DNA of 64,000 nt, taken from assembly GCF_001650905.1 (NCBI RefSeq), contig NZ_LXYG01000020.1, positions 124,001-188,000 of the forward strand. The letters are read 5' to 3'. Under the pieces are notes generated by a model. The model searched no databases, was not told the DNA's origin, and saw nothing but the letters and a program-made list of their open reading frames with translations. The DNA is from Balneola sp. EhC07 (GTDB lineage: Bacteria > Bacteroidota > Rhodothermia > Balneolales > Balneolaceae). Position numbers and translations under genes: made by a program. Each line of letters begins with the position of its first letter. Within the stretch, counting starts at the first letter, position 1. Shown here in pieces: positions 5,372 through 16,864 of this stretch.

Positions 5372-6712
5372 TTAAGATTGTCCTTTTAATTCGGTTTCAT
5401 CTTTTAGCCGAAGATGGAAGAATTTTATATCATCATCCCGAATTACGGAAACACTGAAGCTCCTTGTTGAATGGAAAAGCTCAAGAAGTTCATTTAAACT
5501 GTATTTAGCTACCGGTTCAAAGTTTATTTCATAAAGAACATCATTTGCCTGAATACCGATCTTTTCGGCGATGGAATTTTCACGCACCTTTGAGACAATA
5601 TAATAAGGAAGCCTTAAAAAAGGAGTCGTAATCTCCAGTCCGCTGGTGTTGTAGCTAAAGTCGTCTTTAAAATCGCTGTTTGGCCGAAGTAACATACTTG
5701 GCTCATTATAATTGAATATTACACTAAATCTTCTGAAAAAGTCAGCTCCGATACTACCGTTTCTGTTTCCTCTGTTTGCAACCTGTCTGATGCCTTCAAT
5801 ATCCGGATATGCAATTATTGGATAATCCAGCTCTAACCCATTAACTGAAAGTTTTCTAGCTCTCCCTATGTCTCCATAAATTTCTCCGCTCAACCCACTA
5901 CCCAAATATGATCGAACAGTTTTAGAAGGAATATGAATGCCTTCCTTAGAATTGGGATACAAGAAGATATTATGACTTGCTCCTGAATCTATTAAAAGCT
6001 TTACATCAATATTAGTAGAGTCGCTTTGAGTAATCTCTGCATTCATATAAATTTTATAGTCATGCTTCTCTAAAGGAACATAAACCCATTTTTTATCCTT
6101 CTTTTTTTCTTCATATTTCTCTTTGAAGTAATCAGGATCATGAAAGTAGAGTTTCTCAGATTTGTAATCTATTTCGACTATAAAATTTTCAAATATATCA
6201 TAACCCATCAGGCCGTTTACTCTTCTGCCCATAAAATTTGAAAGTCGAAGAACACTTTCCATTAATAGTACCACAGAATGGTTTTCACCCTCGATCCCAT
6301 CCAGATAAATTTCATTGTTGCCGGATGTGAGTGCCGATATAGGACCACCGTTTCCTAATCCACTTAGCTCAATATCACCTTCGTAATTAATAGTAAAGCT
6401 TTGGTCTTCTCCCAATTCCGTGATAACCGTTCGACCGGCTCCGGTATCCAGAATAAAGTACAAATCACCGGAGTCATTAATTTGTGTTGGAATGACAACA
6501 AGATTATTAATCAGATCAAAAGACATTGAGACAGTGCCTTTATGAAGCTTTTCAATTCTGATATCTCGCTCCTCTCGATTACCTTCTAAAACATGCTTAG
6601 TGCAATTCAAAGAAAATAATACAGCCCCAAAAACCAATATGAATATCTTGTTATTCTTCAAATTCTTTTTTTTGATGGATACGCAATGTGTCTTAAGTGT
6701 TGCAAATAGCAT
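5372..6712 (-). CDS. Retropepsin-like aspartyl protease with C-terminal PDZ domain, membrane or lipid anchored
   Basis: About 446 residues from the ATG at 6712; a TTG at 6754 would add 14. A hydrophobic segment ending in SLNC near the N-terminus suggests export and possibly lipid attachment. Two aspartyl protease half-sites are visible, FILDTGAGRTV and LLIDSGASHNI, so both lobes are in one chain as in pepsins. Flap-like GLGNGG and GSGLSG follow. The last ~90 residues form a PDZ domain (YYIVSKVRENSIAEKIGI). Bacteroidota-type PDZ-aspartyl proteases of this kind are common but poorly studied. It is 87 bp downstream of the TPR gene on the same strand and may be cotranscribed with it. Confidence 0.8.
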   Translation of the reverse strand: MLFATLKTHCVSIKKKNLKNNKIFILVFGAVLFSLNCTKHVLEGNREERDIRIEKLHKGTVSMSFDLINNLVVIPTQINDSGDLYFILDTGAGRTVITELGEDQSFTINYEGDIELSGLGNGGPISALTSGNNEIYLDGIEGENHSVVLLMESVLRLSNFMGRRVNGLMGYDIFENFIVEIDYKSEKLYFHDPDYFKEKYEEKKKDKKWVYVPLEKHDYKIYMNAEITQSDSTNIDVKLLIDSGASHNIFLYPNSKEGIHIPSKTVRSYLGSGLSGEIYGDIGRARKLSVNGLELDYPIIAYPDIEGIRQVANRGNRNGSIGADFFRRFSVIFNYNEPSMLLRPNSDFKDDFSYNTSGLEITTPFLRLPYYIVSKVRENSIAEKIGIQANDVLYEINFEPVAKYSLNELLELFHSTRSFSVSVIRDDDIKFFHLRLKDETELKGQS

Positions 6713-6799
6713 ATTAATTAGTTCTGTAACTTTTCCAAAACTTCTTTTATACAATCCTATCGGTTTTGGTTTATTACAACAGATGCTTCACCTTTCTGT

Positions 6800-8377
6800 T
6801 CAGAATCTGGAACCCCGAATCCAGGTGTCCGATCTTTTCCAGCTTTTCTGAAATTTTAAATCTAATTCTGAATCATTTTTACCCTGAGCTTTTAAAGCTT
6901 GTTGTATTCCAAATAAAGACCAGCCATTATTCGGATGATTTTCTAACTCTTTTTCATGCACTTCTATTGCCCTATCATGTTCTTCTGTCTCCAGCAAAAG
7001 AGCTCCGTACCAGTGTCTTGGAGAAAATGGTATCGGTTCCGGTTCATCATACGCTAAAGAATCGTAGTATTTTATTGCCTGTTTGAATGATTCTTCAGCT
7101 TTTTCGAGCTCTCCTTTTTCCCAGAATATTTCTCCTTCTAAAATATAACCCACCGTACTCAAAAGGTTTTCAGCGGAATGAAATCTGAATCTAGCGGAAG
7201 AAGTTGAAGCTTCTTCTAAAATTTTTTCTTTCATCTCAATTGCTTTCTCTTCATCATCGTTTTTTAAAGAAGCATAACCCTGAGCAAAATCCCACATCCC
7301 ACCATGTACAGAATGTGACGGTCTGTCTTCTATAGCCGGCACTTCATCAAATCTTCCAAACCGTATCAATGTGAGTACATGATACATGTTATTTCCGGTA
7401 AGTTTAGCGTAATCCTTTCCGGCTTGTATCGCTACCGCTCCTTGTCCATCCATACTAGCTGCAAAAGCCAACATATGCAGATTATGAGATGGATAAATAG
7501 CAAATCCTTCTCCCACGGATGCTTTCATATCAGAATGCCACGCCATAATATTTGCAGTTACAGCATCTCCCCAACGTCCGATTTCATTCCATGTATGCGA
7601 AGGCATATGATTAATATGACTTGCCCCCGGAATTGAAGTTCCAATATATTCAGCGCATGGTTCTGCCCATTCGGGGTTTTGCGTTGACTCTGTAGCATGA
7701 ATATATAAATGACAAGCTCCCGGATGCTTGATATCCGTTTCTAATATTCCTTCCAGCACAGAGTGTAGTTTTTCTACATCAGGATCGTTCACATCTCTGG
7801 TTCCTCTTCTTGGCTCTAATAAAAACAAAGATTCTGCATATAGTGTAGCTATATCCAGATCATTCGGATATTTTTGGGACAGTTTCGCCATTTCCTTTGA
7901 GTAAAGAGTATCCTGAACTGCTCTGGTTCCCCGATCATAATCTTTGATATATCTAACTGAAAAAGCTTTTATAAGGTCTTTTTCTTTATCACTGCCGTTA
8001 TTCTCTGAAACTTCTATCGCTTCCTGAATTTTCTCATAAGCTCTGGGGGCCTCAGCTGTAGTCATTGCGCCGTTCAGATAAGATCCCCACGCCCATGCTT
8101 CTCCCCAATAACAAACTGCACATTCAGGATCTGCTTTTTGGGCTTCCCGAAACGAACGAGCCGCATCTACTTTTGTAAATGCATACATCATCTGAAAACC
8201 CTGATTGAAATAGGCTTGTGCTTTTTTATTATCTGATGAGATCGGATATTCAAAATCTCCCAAGGCTACATCAAAGAGAAGAATCGGCTCATCAAAATCG
8301 GATGGATAATTTACATCCTGAGCGATAAGTATAACCGGAAAGAGCGGTAACATCATTAAAAAAATAACTTTTCTCAT
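6800..8377 (-). CDS. Exported TPR protein with conserved His/Cys set, function unknown
   Basis: A 525-residue protein with a signal peptide (to about residue 19) and several TPR motifs at both ends: residues 50-110, and near the C-terminus the helices around YYDSLAYDEPEP and EVHEKELENHPNN. The middle is not ordinary TPR. It contains CAVC (Cys86, Cys89), HLYIHATE (His223, His227), SHINHMPSHTW (His254, His257, His261) and PSHNLHML (His298, His301). I recall this set of motifs from a widespread family simply annotated as TPR proteins, but no function is known to me. The clustered histidines suggest metal binding or catalysis, which is inference. Confidence 0.75.
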   Translation of the reverse strand: MRKVIFLMMLPLFPVILIAQDVNYPSDFDEPILLFDVALGDFEYPISSDNKKAQAYFNQGFQMMYAFTKVDAARSFREAQKADPECAVCYWGEAWAWGSYLNGAMTTAEAPRAYEKIQEAIEVSENNGSDKEKDLIKAFSVRYIKDYDRGTRAVQDTLYSKEMAKLSQKYPNDLDIATLYAESLFLLEPRRGTRDVNDPDVEKLHSVLEGILETDIKHPGACHLYIHATESTQNPEWAEPCAEYIGTSIPGASHINHMPSHTWNEIGRWGDAVTANIMAWHSDMKASVGEGFAIYPSHNLHMLAFAASMDGQGAVAIQAGKDYAKLTGNNMYHVLTLIRFGRFDEVPAIEDRPSHSVHGGMWDFAQGYASLKNDDEEKAIEMKEKILEEASTSSARFRFHSAENLLSTVGYILEGEIFWEKGELEKAEESFKQAIKYYDSLAYDEPEPIPFSPRHWYGALLLETEEHDRAIEVHEKELENHPNNGWSLFGIQQALKAQGKNDSELDLKFQKSWKRSDTWIRGSRF

Positions 8378-12659: not shown

Positions 12660-13358
12660 TTGGGAAAAAGAAATTACCTCCTGGCTATCGCATTAATTTT
12701 TATCCTTGCTGGTTGTTCTACACAAAAATCAGTTCAAATTGTATCTGAAGGATATAAGACTACAAAAATCAATAATGCCAGCCTTGTTATTTTACCATTA
12801 TCAGAAAAATTTGTCGACTCAGAAGTTTGGGAAAATCACTTTCAATTTGATTCCACGAATTCTAGTGATATAAGTATCCATAACAGATTTCTTTTCTTTG
12901 AATACTATGGAACTGCTTTTTCGAGAGTTTCTACCTCTAATGTTAAAGACTTAAGCACTAGTACAAACCTTGAAAATGTTAATAGTTCTATAGAATATGA
13001 AAATGTGAAACTTGCTACTGATAAAGAAGGAGAGTTTCTGACATTTTTAGCCCCTAAGAATGGCACACTGACCATAGATAACCAAGAACCGGATTTTGTT
13101 CTTTTTACACAGACCCTGAGATGGAAAAATGAACTCAAATCACAGGGTACAGTAATAATGGGGAGTGAAAACGAGTATTCAGTAAATATCAATATTAAGC
13201 TCAAGTATCTTATTTGGGATAATAAAAATGAAAGTATAGCCTCGTATGGAGTGATTTTAAAGACTGAATCTTTGATGGGAGTTCCTAAATCGCCTACTTA
13301 CGAGAAAATAGCAACTGAACTTGCTCAAGATATAATAGAAGCTAGTCCGATTTTTTAA
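12660..13358 (+). CDS. Putative lipoprotein, function unknown
   Basis: A 232-residue protein with a clear lipoprotein signal (positively charged GKRN, hydrophobic core, lipobox LAGC at about residue 19). An in-frame stop at 12645-12647 leaves the TTG at 12660 as the only start that keeps the signal intact. The rest has alternating beta-type stretches and no motif that I recognise. Its 3' end overlaps the 3' end of the convergent pxpC by 17 bp. Confidence 0.7.
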   Translation: MGKRNYLLAIALIFILAGCSTQKSVQIVSEGYKTTKINNASLVILPLSEKFVDSEVWENHFQFDSTNSSDISIHNRFLFFEYYGTAFSRVSTSNVKDLSTSTNLENVNSSIEYENVKLATDKEGEFLTFLAPKNGTLTIDNQEPDFVLFTQTLRWKNELKSQGTVIMGSENEYSVNINIKLKYLIWDNKNESIASYGVILKTESLMGVPKSPTYEKIATELAQDIIEASPIF

Positions 13359-14214
13359 ACCGAATAGTACCATTAGGCTGAACTTGAGCAAGTCTATTCA
13401 AATGGATATCCAAAACCTTTCCGATCCTTGGGTATCCACCAACCGTTTGACCATCCTTCATTAATATTATTGGCGATCCGTTTGGAGGCAATTGAATGAT
13501 CCCGGGAATAACCCCGGATGACACCATTTCTCTTTTCTTTCCTTCGATCTGAAAATCAGAGTTGAGCCGAATTCCCATTCTATTACTTTCAGAACTTATC
13601 TTAAATTCAGTACTTAAAAATTTATCTTGCTCTTTTTTTGACAGCCAATTCCATTCCGGGCCGGGAATAAACTCAACGGTGAGTTTTGAACTGTAATATG
13701 GAATTTCTTCTCGAGATGAAGTGTAAGACTGAAAATCAGCCTGAATTTCTTTCCAATGTAGTTGATCACCTTTTTGAAGAGTCCGACCTTCTATTCCTCC
13801 AAAATCTCCTTCGTTGTAAGTGGAATAACTACCCAGTATTTTTTCGATCTCCCAGATTCCCCTAACGCCCAAATAACAGCGACAACCTCTTCTTGCATAT
13901 TCAAAATCTAGAATATCTCCTGACTTTATATCTAAACTAGAATTCAACTCTACGCTTATTCCGTTTACCGTTGGGTTCATATTAGCCCCTGTTAAAGCTA
14001 TTACTGAATCTGACTCAAATCTGTACTTCCCTCCTTTCAGGGTCATTTCCAAAACGGGAGTCTCCGGAGAATTTCCGACCAGACTGTTTACCAACTCAAA
14101 TGCGGAATTATCCATGACTCCCGAAACGGGAACACCATACTTTCTGAACCCAAATCTTCCCGCATCCTGTACAGTTGTAAATAACCCTCCGTCTATAACA
14201 ACTAGCTTACCCAT
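13342..14214 (-). CDS. pxpC: 5-oxoprolinase subunit PxpC (KipA/AHS2 family)
   Basis: A 290-residue carboxyltransferase-like subunit. The family signature near the N-terminus, TVQDAGRFGFRKYGVPVSG followed by MDN, is intact. Later GPEWNW, SSESNRMGIRL and GGYPRIGKV also match. Together with PxpB and PxpA it forms the ATP-dependent enzyme that opens 5-oxoproline to glutamate. It overlaps pxpB by 8 bp and is the last gene of the operon, ending inside the tail of the convergent lipoprotein gene. Confidence 0.93.
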   Translation of the reverse strand: MGKLVVIDGGLFTTVQDAGRFGFRKYGVPVSGVMDNSAFELVNSLVGNSPETPVLEMTLKGGKYRFESDSVIALTGANMNPTVNGISVELNSSLDIKSGDILDFEYARRGCRCYLGVRGIWEIEKILGSYSTYNEGDFGGIEGRTLQKGDQLHWKEIQADFQSYTSSREEIPYYSSKLTVEFIPGPEWNWLSKKEQDKFLSTEFKISSESNRMGIRLNSDFQIEGKKREMVSSGVIPGIIQLPPNGSPIILMKDGQTVGGYPRIGKVLDIHLNRLAQVQPNGTIRFKKSD

Positions 14215-14902
14215 TCTTCGCTACCACTTTGTCAAACTCTTCTTTGGATATTGGTTTGAATCTTATCCTATCACCGGCTTTTAACTTAGTTGGGAGTGTT
14301 TTTTTGACATCAAAAAATGACTCTGTAGTTCTGCCGATGATTTGCCATCCTCCCGGACTTTCCAAAGAATAAATTCCTGTTTGATTTCCCCCAATCCCAA
14401 CTGAGCCTGAAGGAACTTTGATTCTGGGTTTTTCTTTTCTTGAAACAGCAATACGATCATCCAGCCCTTCCAGAAATATAAACCCGGGCATAAACCCCAT
14501 CATAGCAAGTGTGTAATTTTGTGTTGAATGTATTGAAATAACCTCTTCTTTCGATAAACCTGTTTTTACCTCAACCTCATTCCAATCCATACCTAGCTCA
14601 TAGCAGACATTGATCTCAAAAATGTTCTTTTCTCTACTTAAATGTGGTTCCCTACTTGGAGAAATTTCAGAAATTTTACCGGGATCGTACTTAAACTGTG
14701 AGTCGTAAATAAGTGTGATAGAATCATAAGCAGGAATTATGTCCTGCAAGCCATCTATTTTTGACCGTTCTAACAGATCTGAAGCAGAATGAATGTGTTC
14801 TAAAACATTTTCCGATACTTTCGGTTGGAGTAACCAAGCTGTTTCCCCTAATCTGAAAACGGACCAGGATATTCCATTAAGGTGCAGTGATCCTGACTCC
14901 AT
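14207..14902 (-). CDS. pxpB: 5-oxoprolinase subunit PxpB (KipI/AHS1 family)
   Basis: A 231-residue partner of PxpC. Diagnostic stretches are GFMPGFIFLEGLD, PRIKVPSGSVGIGG and SPGGWQIIGRT. In Bacillus the homologue KipI was first described as a kinase inhibitor; the enzyme role in 5-oxoproline cleavage is the established general function. It overlaps pxpA by 26 bp and pxpC by 8 bp, indicating translational coupling. Confidence 0.93.
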   Translation of the reverse strand: MESGSLHLNGISWSVFRLGETAWLLQPKVSENVLEHIHSASDLLERSKIDGLQDIIPAYDSITLIYDSQFKYDPGKISEISPSREPHLSREKNIFEINVCYELGMDWNEVEVKTGLSKEEVISIHSTQNYTLAMMGFMPGFIFLEGLDDRIAVSRKEKPRIKVPSGSVGIGGNQTGIYSLESPGGWQIIGRTTESFFDVKKTLPTKLKAGDRIRFKPISKEEFDKVVAKNG

Positions 14903-15635
14903 GATTCTTTAGAAATTGATGAATATTTCTGGCAAGCACTTCAGAGCCTTTAGTATCGCTGTGCAAACAAATAGTTTCAGCTTTGATAGGTAATTCTTTG
15001 CCTGAGTATGCGATAACTTTTTCTTCGATCACCATTTTAAAAATCTGAGACAAAACTTCTTCCTTTTTGTGAAGAACTGCTCCTTCTTCACTCCGAGAGC
15101 GTAGCCTTAAGTCATCTTCATATGCCCGATCTGCAAATACCTCTGCACAAAATTTCAGATCATTTTTCAGAGCTACTTTTTCGAACTCTGATCCGGATTG
15201 TCCATAAACAACAACACCCAGACTCAATTCTTTGATAGCTTCAGCTACCGTTTTCGCAATATCTCTATATACTGAAGCTGCATTATATAATGCTCCGTGA
15301 GGTTTTATGTGATGAAGCTCCACTCCCTCTAAATCAGCAATTTCTTTTAAACTTAAGATTTGATCTTTGATACTGTTTTTAAGTCGATCTCGGTTCATTT
15401 CCAGCTGCCTGCGTCCAAATCCTGCTCTATCAGGATAAGAAGGATGTGCTCCTACCTTCACTTTGTTTTTTTTAGCCAGAATTACAGTCCATCGCATACT
15501 GATCTCATCTCCAATATGTCCTCCACAGGCAATATTACACGATGAAATGTAAGGCATAATAGCTTTATCAAGATCAGGACCCTCTTCGGATATCCATTCT
15601 CCCAGATCACAATTTAGATCAATACTTGTTTTCAT
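14877..15635 (-). CDS. pxpA: 5-oxoprolinase subunit PxpA (LamB/YcsF family)
   Basis: A 252-residue protein opening with DLNCDLGEW, the hallmark of the LamB/YcsF family, followed by SCNIACGGHIGD, GAHPSYPDR and HHIKPHGALYN. It provides the third subunit for ATP-dependent 5-oxoproline hydrolysis in the cytoplasm. It overlaps the upstream transporter by 4 bp (ATGA) and pxpB by 26 bp. The four-gene arrangement resembles the Bacillus ycsFG-kip region. Confidence 0.95.
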   Translation of the reverse strand: MKTSIDLNCDLGEWISEEGPDLDKAIMPYISSCNIACGGHIGDEISMRWTVILAKKNKVKVGAHPSYPDRAGFGRRQLEMNRDRLKNSIKDQILSLKEIADLEGVELHHIKPHGALYNAASVYRDIAKTVAEAIKELSLGVVVYGQSGSEFEKVALKNDLKFCAEVFADRAYEDDLRLRSRSEEGAVLHKKEEVLSQIFKMVIEEKVIAYSGKELPIKAETICLHSDTKGSEVLARNIHQFLKNHGVRITAP

Positions 15636-16864
15636 AAGAACTGAAATACATTGTTCAAGCTTCTGAAACCAACCAATAACGCTACCAAAACCACTAAGCT
15701 TCCCAAAATATTCTGAATGGTTGTATTCACATAATCCCCCAAAATTTTCTTTTGGTTTACGACATACATCAAAAATATTGCAACCAACGGAAGTAAAATT
15801 CCATTGGCTACCTGAGCAAACTGGATAATACTTACAGGACTAAAACTCAACATTGAAAACAAAACGCCAATGATGAGAATGATCATCCAGACTGCTTTAA
15901 ATTTTGGATGTTTCATATCTATATCCCAACCCAGAATTCCCTTCGCTGTAAATGCAGCAGCCAGTGGTGCCGTAATTGCAGATGAGATTCCGGCAGCAAC
16001 CAAACCCAGTCCTAAAAAATCTTTTGCCCAACTACCCAGTAATGGTTCCAGCTGTACAGCCATATCAGCGGCGTTCTTAATTTCTGAACCTGAACTTCCT
16101 GATGCCGCACTTGTTATCACTATGCACATAGAAATAATTCCACCTAAAATAATGGCAACCATATTTTCTTTTCTCAAATCAGAAAGCTGACCGGTTTCAG
16201 AATATTTTTGCTGAACCGATGATGCATGAAGAAACAGATTATAAGGAACAACCGTCGTTCCAATTAACGCCACAACCAATAGAATTTCGTCAGCTGAAGC
16301 AGTAGGAATAAATAGCCCTTTTACTATTTCTGAAAGATCAGGAGCGATCATAATTGCTGTCGCCAGAAAAATCACACTCATTACTACAACCAGACCTACC
16401 AGGAAGTTTTGAATTCGTTTAAAGTTTCCTGAATACAACAACCAAAAAGCAATCCCACCTATGATCAGTGGCACTAATCTGATTTCTGCTCCTTCTATAA
16501 TGATGTTTACAGCAGGAAGTACTTCGTTCCAACCAAGAACAGCCCCGGATATATTTCCCCCTTCATAGGCTGCATTACCGATAACAATTGCACCCAAAAC
16601 CAATGTGATCCCAAAGATCCTTAATAACGGATTTTGTAGTTCGCCACGAATTGCTTCACCAAACCCCTTTTGAGTAATTAAACCCAAGCGAGCGGTCATT
16701 TCTTGTAGTACAATCGTTGCAATTACTGAAAAAAATAAAGCCCAAAGCAACGTATATCCTGAGTTCACTCCGGCTAGTGTACAAACGGTAACGGTTCCGG
16801 GACCAATGAAAGCTGCTGTGACTAAAGTACTTGGACCGAAATATTTTTTAACTTGCAATTTCAT
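15632..16864 (-). CDS. Nramp-fold transporter lacking canonical metal-binding residues
   Basis: A 410-residue membrane protein with about 11 hydrophobic helices and the Nramp layout. The first helix reads GPGTVT (residues 21-26) where metal-transporting Nramps have DPGN. The sixth helix reads VVPYN (205-209) where they have MPH. Thus the usual Asp, Asn and Met metal ligands are absent. It is the first gene of the pxpABC operon and overlaps pxpA by 4 bp. A B. subtilis Nramp-like gene (ycsG) occurs in the same context. Transport of 5-oxoproline or a related organic acid is an inference from position and lost ligands. Confidence 0.85.
   Translation of the reverse strand: MKLQVKKYFGPSTLVTAAFIGPGTVTVCTLAGVNSGYTLLWALFFSVIATIVLQEMTARLGLITQKGFGEAIRGELQNPLLRIFGITLVLGAIVIGNAAYEGGNISGAVLGWNEVLPAVNIIIEGAEIRLVPLIIGGIAFWLLYSGNFKRIQNFLVGLVVVMSVIFLATAIMIAPDLSEIVKGLFIPTASADEILLVVALIGTTVVPYNLFLHASSVQQKYSETGQLSDLRKENMVAIILGGIISMCIVITSAASGSSGSEIKNAADMAVQLEPLLGSWAKDFLGLGLVAAGISSAITAPLAAAFTAKGILGWDIDMKHPKFKAVWMIILIIGVLFSMLSFSPVSIIQFAQVANGILLPLVAIFLMYVVNQKKILGDYVNTTIQNILGSLVVLVALLVGFRSLNNVFQFL

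Follow-up and report, generated by a model that had tools for sequence, protein, structure and literature searches.

The prokaryotic ATP-dependent 5-oxoprolinase PxpABC cleaves 5-oxoproline, and the Nramp-like protein YcsG of Bacillus subtilis is said, in papers that cite a 2017 study by Niehaus, to be needed for use of this compound. YcsG, PxpT of Corynebacterium glutamicum (cg1142) and PxpG of Clostridioides difficile have in common the Nramp fold and a pxpABC operon. Growth of C. glutamicum on 5-oxoproline depends on PxpT, whose loss was complemented in trans; service of an Nramp-fold protein in 5-oxoproline uptake is therefore already known, and the general idea is not new, because for PxpT an organic-acid importer in this fold has been put forward and backed by genetics (PMC13274462). 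YcsG was renamed MntG because its overexpression raised cell manganese and MntR binds its promoter (PMC10448178). Here we describe an Nramp-fold transporter encoded at the head of a pxpABC operon in Balneola sp. EhC07, within a window of 64,000 nucleotides (contig NZ_LXYG01000020.1, positions 124,001 to 188,000 of the forward strand). The protein probably acts as a secondary transporter that imports 5-oxoproline or a small lactam acid closely related to it. New here are its separate lineage, the swap of its partner enzyme among relatives and a proposed substrate for the 'orphan' outgroup of Slc11.

That outgroup was described by Cellier within PF01566 as distinct from the Mg2+ transporter NRMT, and its markers are V-Y together with T for A in helix 6, Y-N in helix 3 and a set of glycines (the GYGNGG mutant) (PMC10606218, PMC9606685). 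Shin and others regarded the outgroup as one that might connect the metal transporters with carriers of other, non-metal substrates (PMC4072509). We found no substrate for the orphan outgroup in these three papers; genome context supplies a candidate here. The window transporter has the helix 6 threonine (T203) and V-Y pair (V206, Y208), the helix 3 Y-N pair (Y100, N104) and the invariant glycines (G96/103/107/111), and its identity to Slc11 lies below 30% (about 20–25% to Slc11 structures); the match between the outgroup and the window set is judged on the residues named in PMC10606218 only. In two trees the protein falls outside the Slc11 clade, in a separate clade (support 99/97 and 91/72), with EleNRMT in another clade both times. 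In an NCBIfam profile search it scores far under the cut-offs of the MntH subfamily models.

The transporter gene is followed head to tail on the minus strand by pxpA, pxpB and pxpC, with overlaps of 4, 26 and 8 bp, respectively (Table 1). An earlier note on this DNA had described four genes overlapping by 4–26 bp, with GPGTVT in place of DPGN and VVPYN in place of MPH in the transporter; the open reading frames and coordinates were as it gave them, and alignment with the Deinococcus Nramp (DraNramp) bore out both replacements. Pfam and NCBIfam profiles identify the three downstream products as the subunits of the prokaryotic 5-oxoprolinase, all present and adjacent; for PxpC, the equivalog NF045499 matched below its cut-off and the domain model TIGR00724 above. 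A promoter and terminator scan gave no excess over shuffles. The transporter occurs in 14 sampled genomes of the same family; 13 of them keep the transporter–pxpA order, and the remaining one has hyuAB. The arrangement is therefore not a chance one, given this retained order and a motif that is nearly invariant in 81 aligned members of the clade.

We next consider the metal site. DraNramp binds Mn2+ with the side chains of D56, N59 and M230 and with the main-chain carbonyls of A53 and A227, and its D56A mutant loses metal transport (PMC10185341). The aligned window residues are G21, T24 and V206 for the three side-chain ligands, A18 and T203 for A53 and A227, and Y208 for H232. Neither DPGN in transmembrane helix 1 (TM1) nor MPH in TM6 is thus retained, the window protein having GPGT and VPY, and its TM6 reads IGTTVVPYNLFLHAS. 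G21 also stands at the TM1 Asp position of EleNRMT. The TM3 register against MntH is uncertain by three residues; MAFFT pairs E101 with DraNramp D131, whereas Cellier's sites imply E134. Among the 81 aligned members AAFIGPGTVT is conserved at 90% or more and GTTxVxYNxFLH is almost wholly invariant. Since the replacement residues are themselves conserved, the site is a different one under conservation rather than a decayed one.

A good AlphaFold2 model of the transporter (predicted local distance difference test score, pLDDT, 88.6; predicted template-modelling score, pTM, 0.87) shows the Nramp fold; the break in TM1 lies at residues 18–21 and that in TM6 at residues 205–206. The nearest solved folds are NRMT and MntH (Foldseek template-modelling score, TM-score, 0.85; VIA-align Z 44–46), followed at Z 26–31 by carriers of amino acids and other organic solutes from the same superfamily. 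MntH/Slc11 proteins (DraNramp, Bacteroides fragilis MntH) share with it the fold (Z 43–46, root-mean-square deviation 2.4–2.6 Å) and the broken TM1 and TM6, but the window protein lacks their DPGN and MPH ligands and is placed outside their clade. EleNRMT (7qia), the top Foldseek match (TM-score 0.85, 25% identity), likewise differs: NRMT retains the TM1 Asp (NDAGG), has TIAPW in TM6 and forms a clade of its own.

Linkage to oxoprolinase genes extends well beyond the window. We fetched 80 named loci by transporter sequence alone, disregarding neighbours, in a set that consists largely of Flavobacteriia and haloarchaea. At 64 of the 80 loci pxpA lies downstream on the same strand, at 12 hyuA does and at 4 neither; the gap from transporter stop to enzyme start has a median of 2.5 bp and is within 300 bp in 75 of 76 cases. 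The earlier note had staked its proposal on pxp linkage across relatives, and that linkage is found at these 64 loci, with the other oxoprolinase at 12 more. Among MntH, NRMT and other PF01566 types taken from the same material as controls, either enzyme was nearby in 0 of 46. HyuA and HyuB are members of the hydantoinase/oxoprolinase families (PF05378, PF01968 and PF02538), which are unrelated to PxpABC and include the eukaryotic-type 5-oxoprolinase; the clade is thus linked to two non-homologous oxoprolinase systems. The hyuAB genes replace pxpABC in haloarchaea, in Rhodothermia-type genomes, in one Balneolaceae genome and at the Bacteroidota loci L079 and L096, and the 12 hyuAB cases among the named loci are haloarchaea and two Bacteroidota. 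L079 groups in trees with pxp-linked Bacteroidales, and at least two enzyme switches are needed on the transporter tree.

Co-occurrence was assessed in one fixed sample of 118 genomes, all from the phylum of the window genome. Of these, 29 contain the transporter clade, 24 have pxpA above its cut-off and 18 have hyuB. Every one of the 29 carriers has exactly one of the two enzyme genes, pxpA in 21 cases and hyuB in 8, although just 42 of the 118 genomes have either (hypergeometric p about 8e-18 when genomes are counted and 2e-9 when genera are, uncorrected for relatedness). Stand-alone members in the sampled genomes have an oxoprolinase gene elsewhere in the genome. Three pxpA genomes lack the clade, and in two of them a YcsG-type Nramp adjoins pxpA. 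The same transporter is thus paired with either of two unrelated enzymes, and PxpABC with either of two transporter lineages; what these pairings share is the small molecule.

A separate feature of the haloarchaeal loci (L035, L037, L038, L040 and others) is a ribbon-helix-helix (CopG-type) regulator gene conserved just upstream of the transporter. It is present also at L038, where hyuAB is missing, and its product is a candidate 5-oxoproline regulator.

A further link to 5-oxoproline comes from Campylobacter jejuni. There, the cj0552-4 operon carries DUF2891 as its third gene beside DUF969/DUF979, and an operon mutant lost growth on 5-oxoproline (PMC12795558). At most flavobacterial loci of our clade a DUF2891 (PF11199) lipoprotein gene lies directly upstream of the transporter gene, overlapping or abutting it (L042, L094, L085, L129 and about 45 further flavobacterial loci); at L085, L094 and L129 the pair stands without a nearby pxp gene. 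The DUF969/DUF979 5-oxoproline transporter (cj0552-3) and the window transporter have in common the DUF2891 neighbour and the link to 5-oxoproline but belong to unrelated protein families. None of the 118 sampled genomes gave a DUF969 match above the cut-off, which is what replacement by the Nramp-like protein would predict. The DUF2891 lipoprotein may work in the periplasm as a partner that helps to supply 5-oxoproline. At L129, a gamma-glutamyltranspeptidase gene (6396–8126) lies 107 bp downstream of the DUF2891–transporter pair.

Membership of the window protein in the YcsG/PxpT lineage was considered and rejected: the operon with pxpABC is common to both, but identity is 21–26%, the motifs differ and the clades are separate. 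The statement in the earlier note that ycsG has the same context therefore stands for the gene order and fails if read as common subfamily membership. Pxp-linked Nramps of Bacillus badius, Lactiplantibacillus, Rhizobium and Klebsiella plasmids are 43–68% identical to one another and 22–26% identical to the window protein, and all four have the YcsG-type motifs GPGF[LI]TQT in TM1 and GGTVGGYI in TM6. In this sequence comparison the B. badius protein, encoded in the same gene order (pxpA, Nramp, putative hydro-lyase), represented B. subtilis YcsG; structural alignment with the YcsG model 9a52 gave 21% identity. In two trees YcsG-type proteins group together with full support, on a branch longer than four changes per column. 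Profile comparison nonetheless aligns the two lineages end to end (hhalign, 99.5%), with GPGxxT, a TM3 GN, TM6 TVxxY and a TM10 NG in common, and PxpT, YcsG and PxpG share with the window protein the TM1 GPG, the TM10 Asn-Gly and the TM6 Tyr. It is PxpT and YcsG, not the window lineage, that have been linked genetically to 5-oxoproline use, and a literature search found no experimental data on the window lineage.

From these observations we infer both the substrate and the direction of transport. A secondary transporter of the Nramp (LeuT-type) fold would bring 5-oxoproline (pyroglutamate), or a close lactam acid, into the cell, where the co-transcribed PxpABC would open the ring with ATP to yield glutamate. 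Uptake and ring opening to glutamate would together make the operon an uptake-and-use unit, with 5-oxoproline as a carbon and nitrogen source. In the APC amino-acid carriers GkApcT and AdiC the substrate carboxylate contacts TM1 amides (Thr43 and Gly44; Ser26 and Gly27) (PMC5803215), and by analogy the broken TM1 (G-P-G-T) may hold the carboxylate of 5-oxoproline. Polar contacts could come from TM6 (T203/T204/Y208), TM3 (Y100/N104) and TM10 (Q351/N354), and transport may be coupled to a cation, possibly through E101, the one conserved TM3 glutamate. We favour 5-oxoproline import because the metal ligands are absent while the residues replacing them are conserved, because growth on 5-oxoproline depends on PxpT, a distant relative with the same fold, and because locus linkage, enzyme swap, co-occurrence, transporter swap and DUF2891 coupling point the same way.

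Several observations weigh against this assignment and bear on its alternatives. Hydantoins and caprolactam are further substrates of HyuAB-family enzymes. A caprolactamase of the family did not use 5-oxoproline (PMC6061476); the shared substrate could therefore be another lactam. Eight loci (L130, L131, L137, L138, L132, L036, L038 and L039) sit away from oxoprolinase genes. The manganese effect and MntR binding reported for YcsG (PMC10448178) also count here, and the window genome has no canonical DPGN MntH among its PF01566 proteins and no ZnuA-type binding protein, so that a metal role is compatible with the genome.

The strongest competitor, though an unlikely one, is import of some other small cyclic amide or of a compound resembling an amino acid (candidates are hydantoin, a different lactam, a cyclic dipeptide, and proline or glutamate themselves), with the downstream enzyme differing by lineage. 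The several lactam substrates of the HyuAB superfamily would fit such a role, as would the top NCBIfam models for the linked enzymes, which are caprolactamase subunits, all below cut-off, and the closest solved relative of the fused enzyme, which is named N-methylhydantoinase. Against this, most loci carry PxpABC, a known cleaver of 5-oxoproline, and DUF2891 connects the operon with cj0552-4, a system required for 5-oxoproline use (PMC12795558).

Less probable still, by about half, is that the protein remains an importer of divalent metal (Mn2+ or Mg2+), feeding a metal-dependent oxoprolinase or coupling nitrogen use to metal supply, in line with the claim made for YcsG/MntG. The YcsG data and the missing MntH and ZnuA-type proteins speak for it. 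The equivalents of D56, N59 and M230 are replaced, however, and the window genome has two ZIP-family matches. No metal-specific gene recurs beside the transporter at the loci examined. The earlier note had asked whether homologues with the same motifs carry metal; the sole metal claim for a relative, that on YcsG (PMC10448178), concerns a different lineage, one without these motifs. An exporter or exchanger relieving a build-up of internally formed 5-oxoproline is the least likely alternative. The compound does arise spontaneously from glutamine and glutamate, and PxpABC can act in clean-up, but use of external 5-oxoproline depends on the context relatives PxpT and cj0552-4 (PMC13274462, PMC12795558).

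Table 1. Features of the transporter–pxpABC operon, in window positions
Feature	Position	Strand	Details
Nramp-fold transporter, Slc11 'orphan outgroup' type, operon's first gene	15632..16864	-	410 aa; Pfam PF01566, 278 bits
TM1 core AAFIGPGTVT, residues 17-26	16787..16816	-	G21/T24 for metal-ligand Asp/Asn; alignment with DraNramp, EleNRMT, B. fragilis MntH
TM3 segment NAAYEGGNISGAVLGW, residues 97-112	16529..16576	-	orphan-clade signature Y100, E101, N104; PMC10606218 (h3 Y-N)
TM6 core IGTTVVPYNLFLH, residues 201-213	16226..16264	-	V206/Y208 for Met ligand/His; PMC10606218 (h6 V-Y, A-to-T)
pxpA, 5-oxoprolinase subunit A (LamB/YcsF)	14877..15635	-	252 aa; PF03746, 286 bits; NF003814 over cut-off
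pxpB, 5-oxoprolinase subunit B	14207..14902	-	231 aa; PF02682, TIGR00370 over cut-off
pxpC, 5-oxoprolinase subunit C, operon's last gene	13342..14214	-	290 aa; PF02626, TIGR00724 over cut-off

At its 3′ end pxpC overlaps by 17 bp a convergent lipoprotein-like open reading frame (12660–13358, plus strand) with a TTG start and no Pfam match. The window genome also encodes two further outlying PF01566 proteins (L002 and L003, on contigs C18 and C17), with IGTGSVTSM and GVSHLVQST in TM1, respectively; by appearance, rather than by family assignment, the neighbours of L002 resemble sugar-degradation enzymes. From these outliers, more of PF01566 may carry non-metal substrates. Bacteroidota MntH-type genes (L147, L150, L163, L178, L181 and similar) have frames of about 620–650 codons against the usual 400–450, possibly reflecting a fused C-terminal domain. 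Viral contigs held no relatives.

More tentatively, the orphan and YcsG/PxpT clades might form a 5-oxoproline (lactam) half of PF01566 from which the metal Nramps descended by gaining the TM1 Asp/Asn and TM6 Met/His, a scenario we consider doubtful. In an unrooted tree both pxp-linked lineages fall on one side of the metal transporters with weak support (87/60), a placement lost when long-branch rows are kept in the tree.

Public records annotate members of the clade as 'Nramp family divalent metal transporter'. If import of 5-oxoproline is correct, a widespread bacterial and haloarchaeal branch is misannotated, and the orphan outgroup of Slc11 would gain a substrate. The finding would also bear on the dispute over YcsG as a manganese importer or a 5-oxoproline importer, and how an organic-solute carrier became a metal transporter could be tested directly by changing a few residues in TM1, TM3 and TM6.

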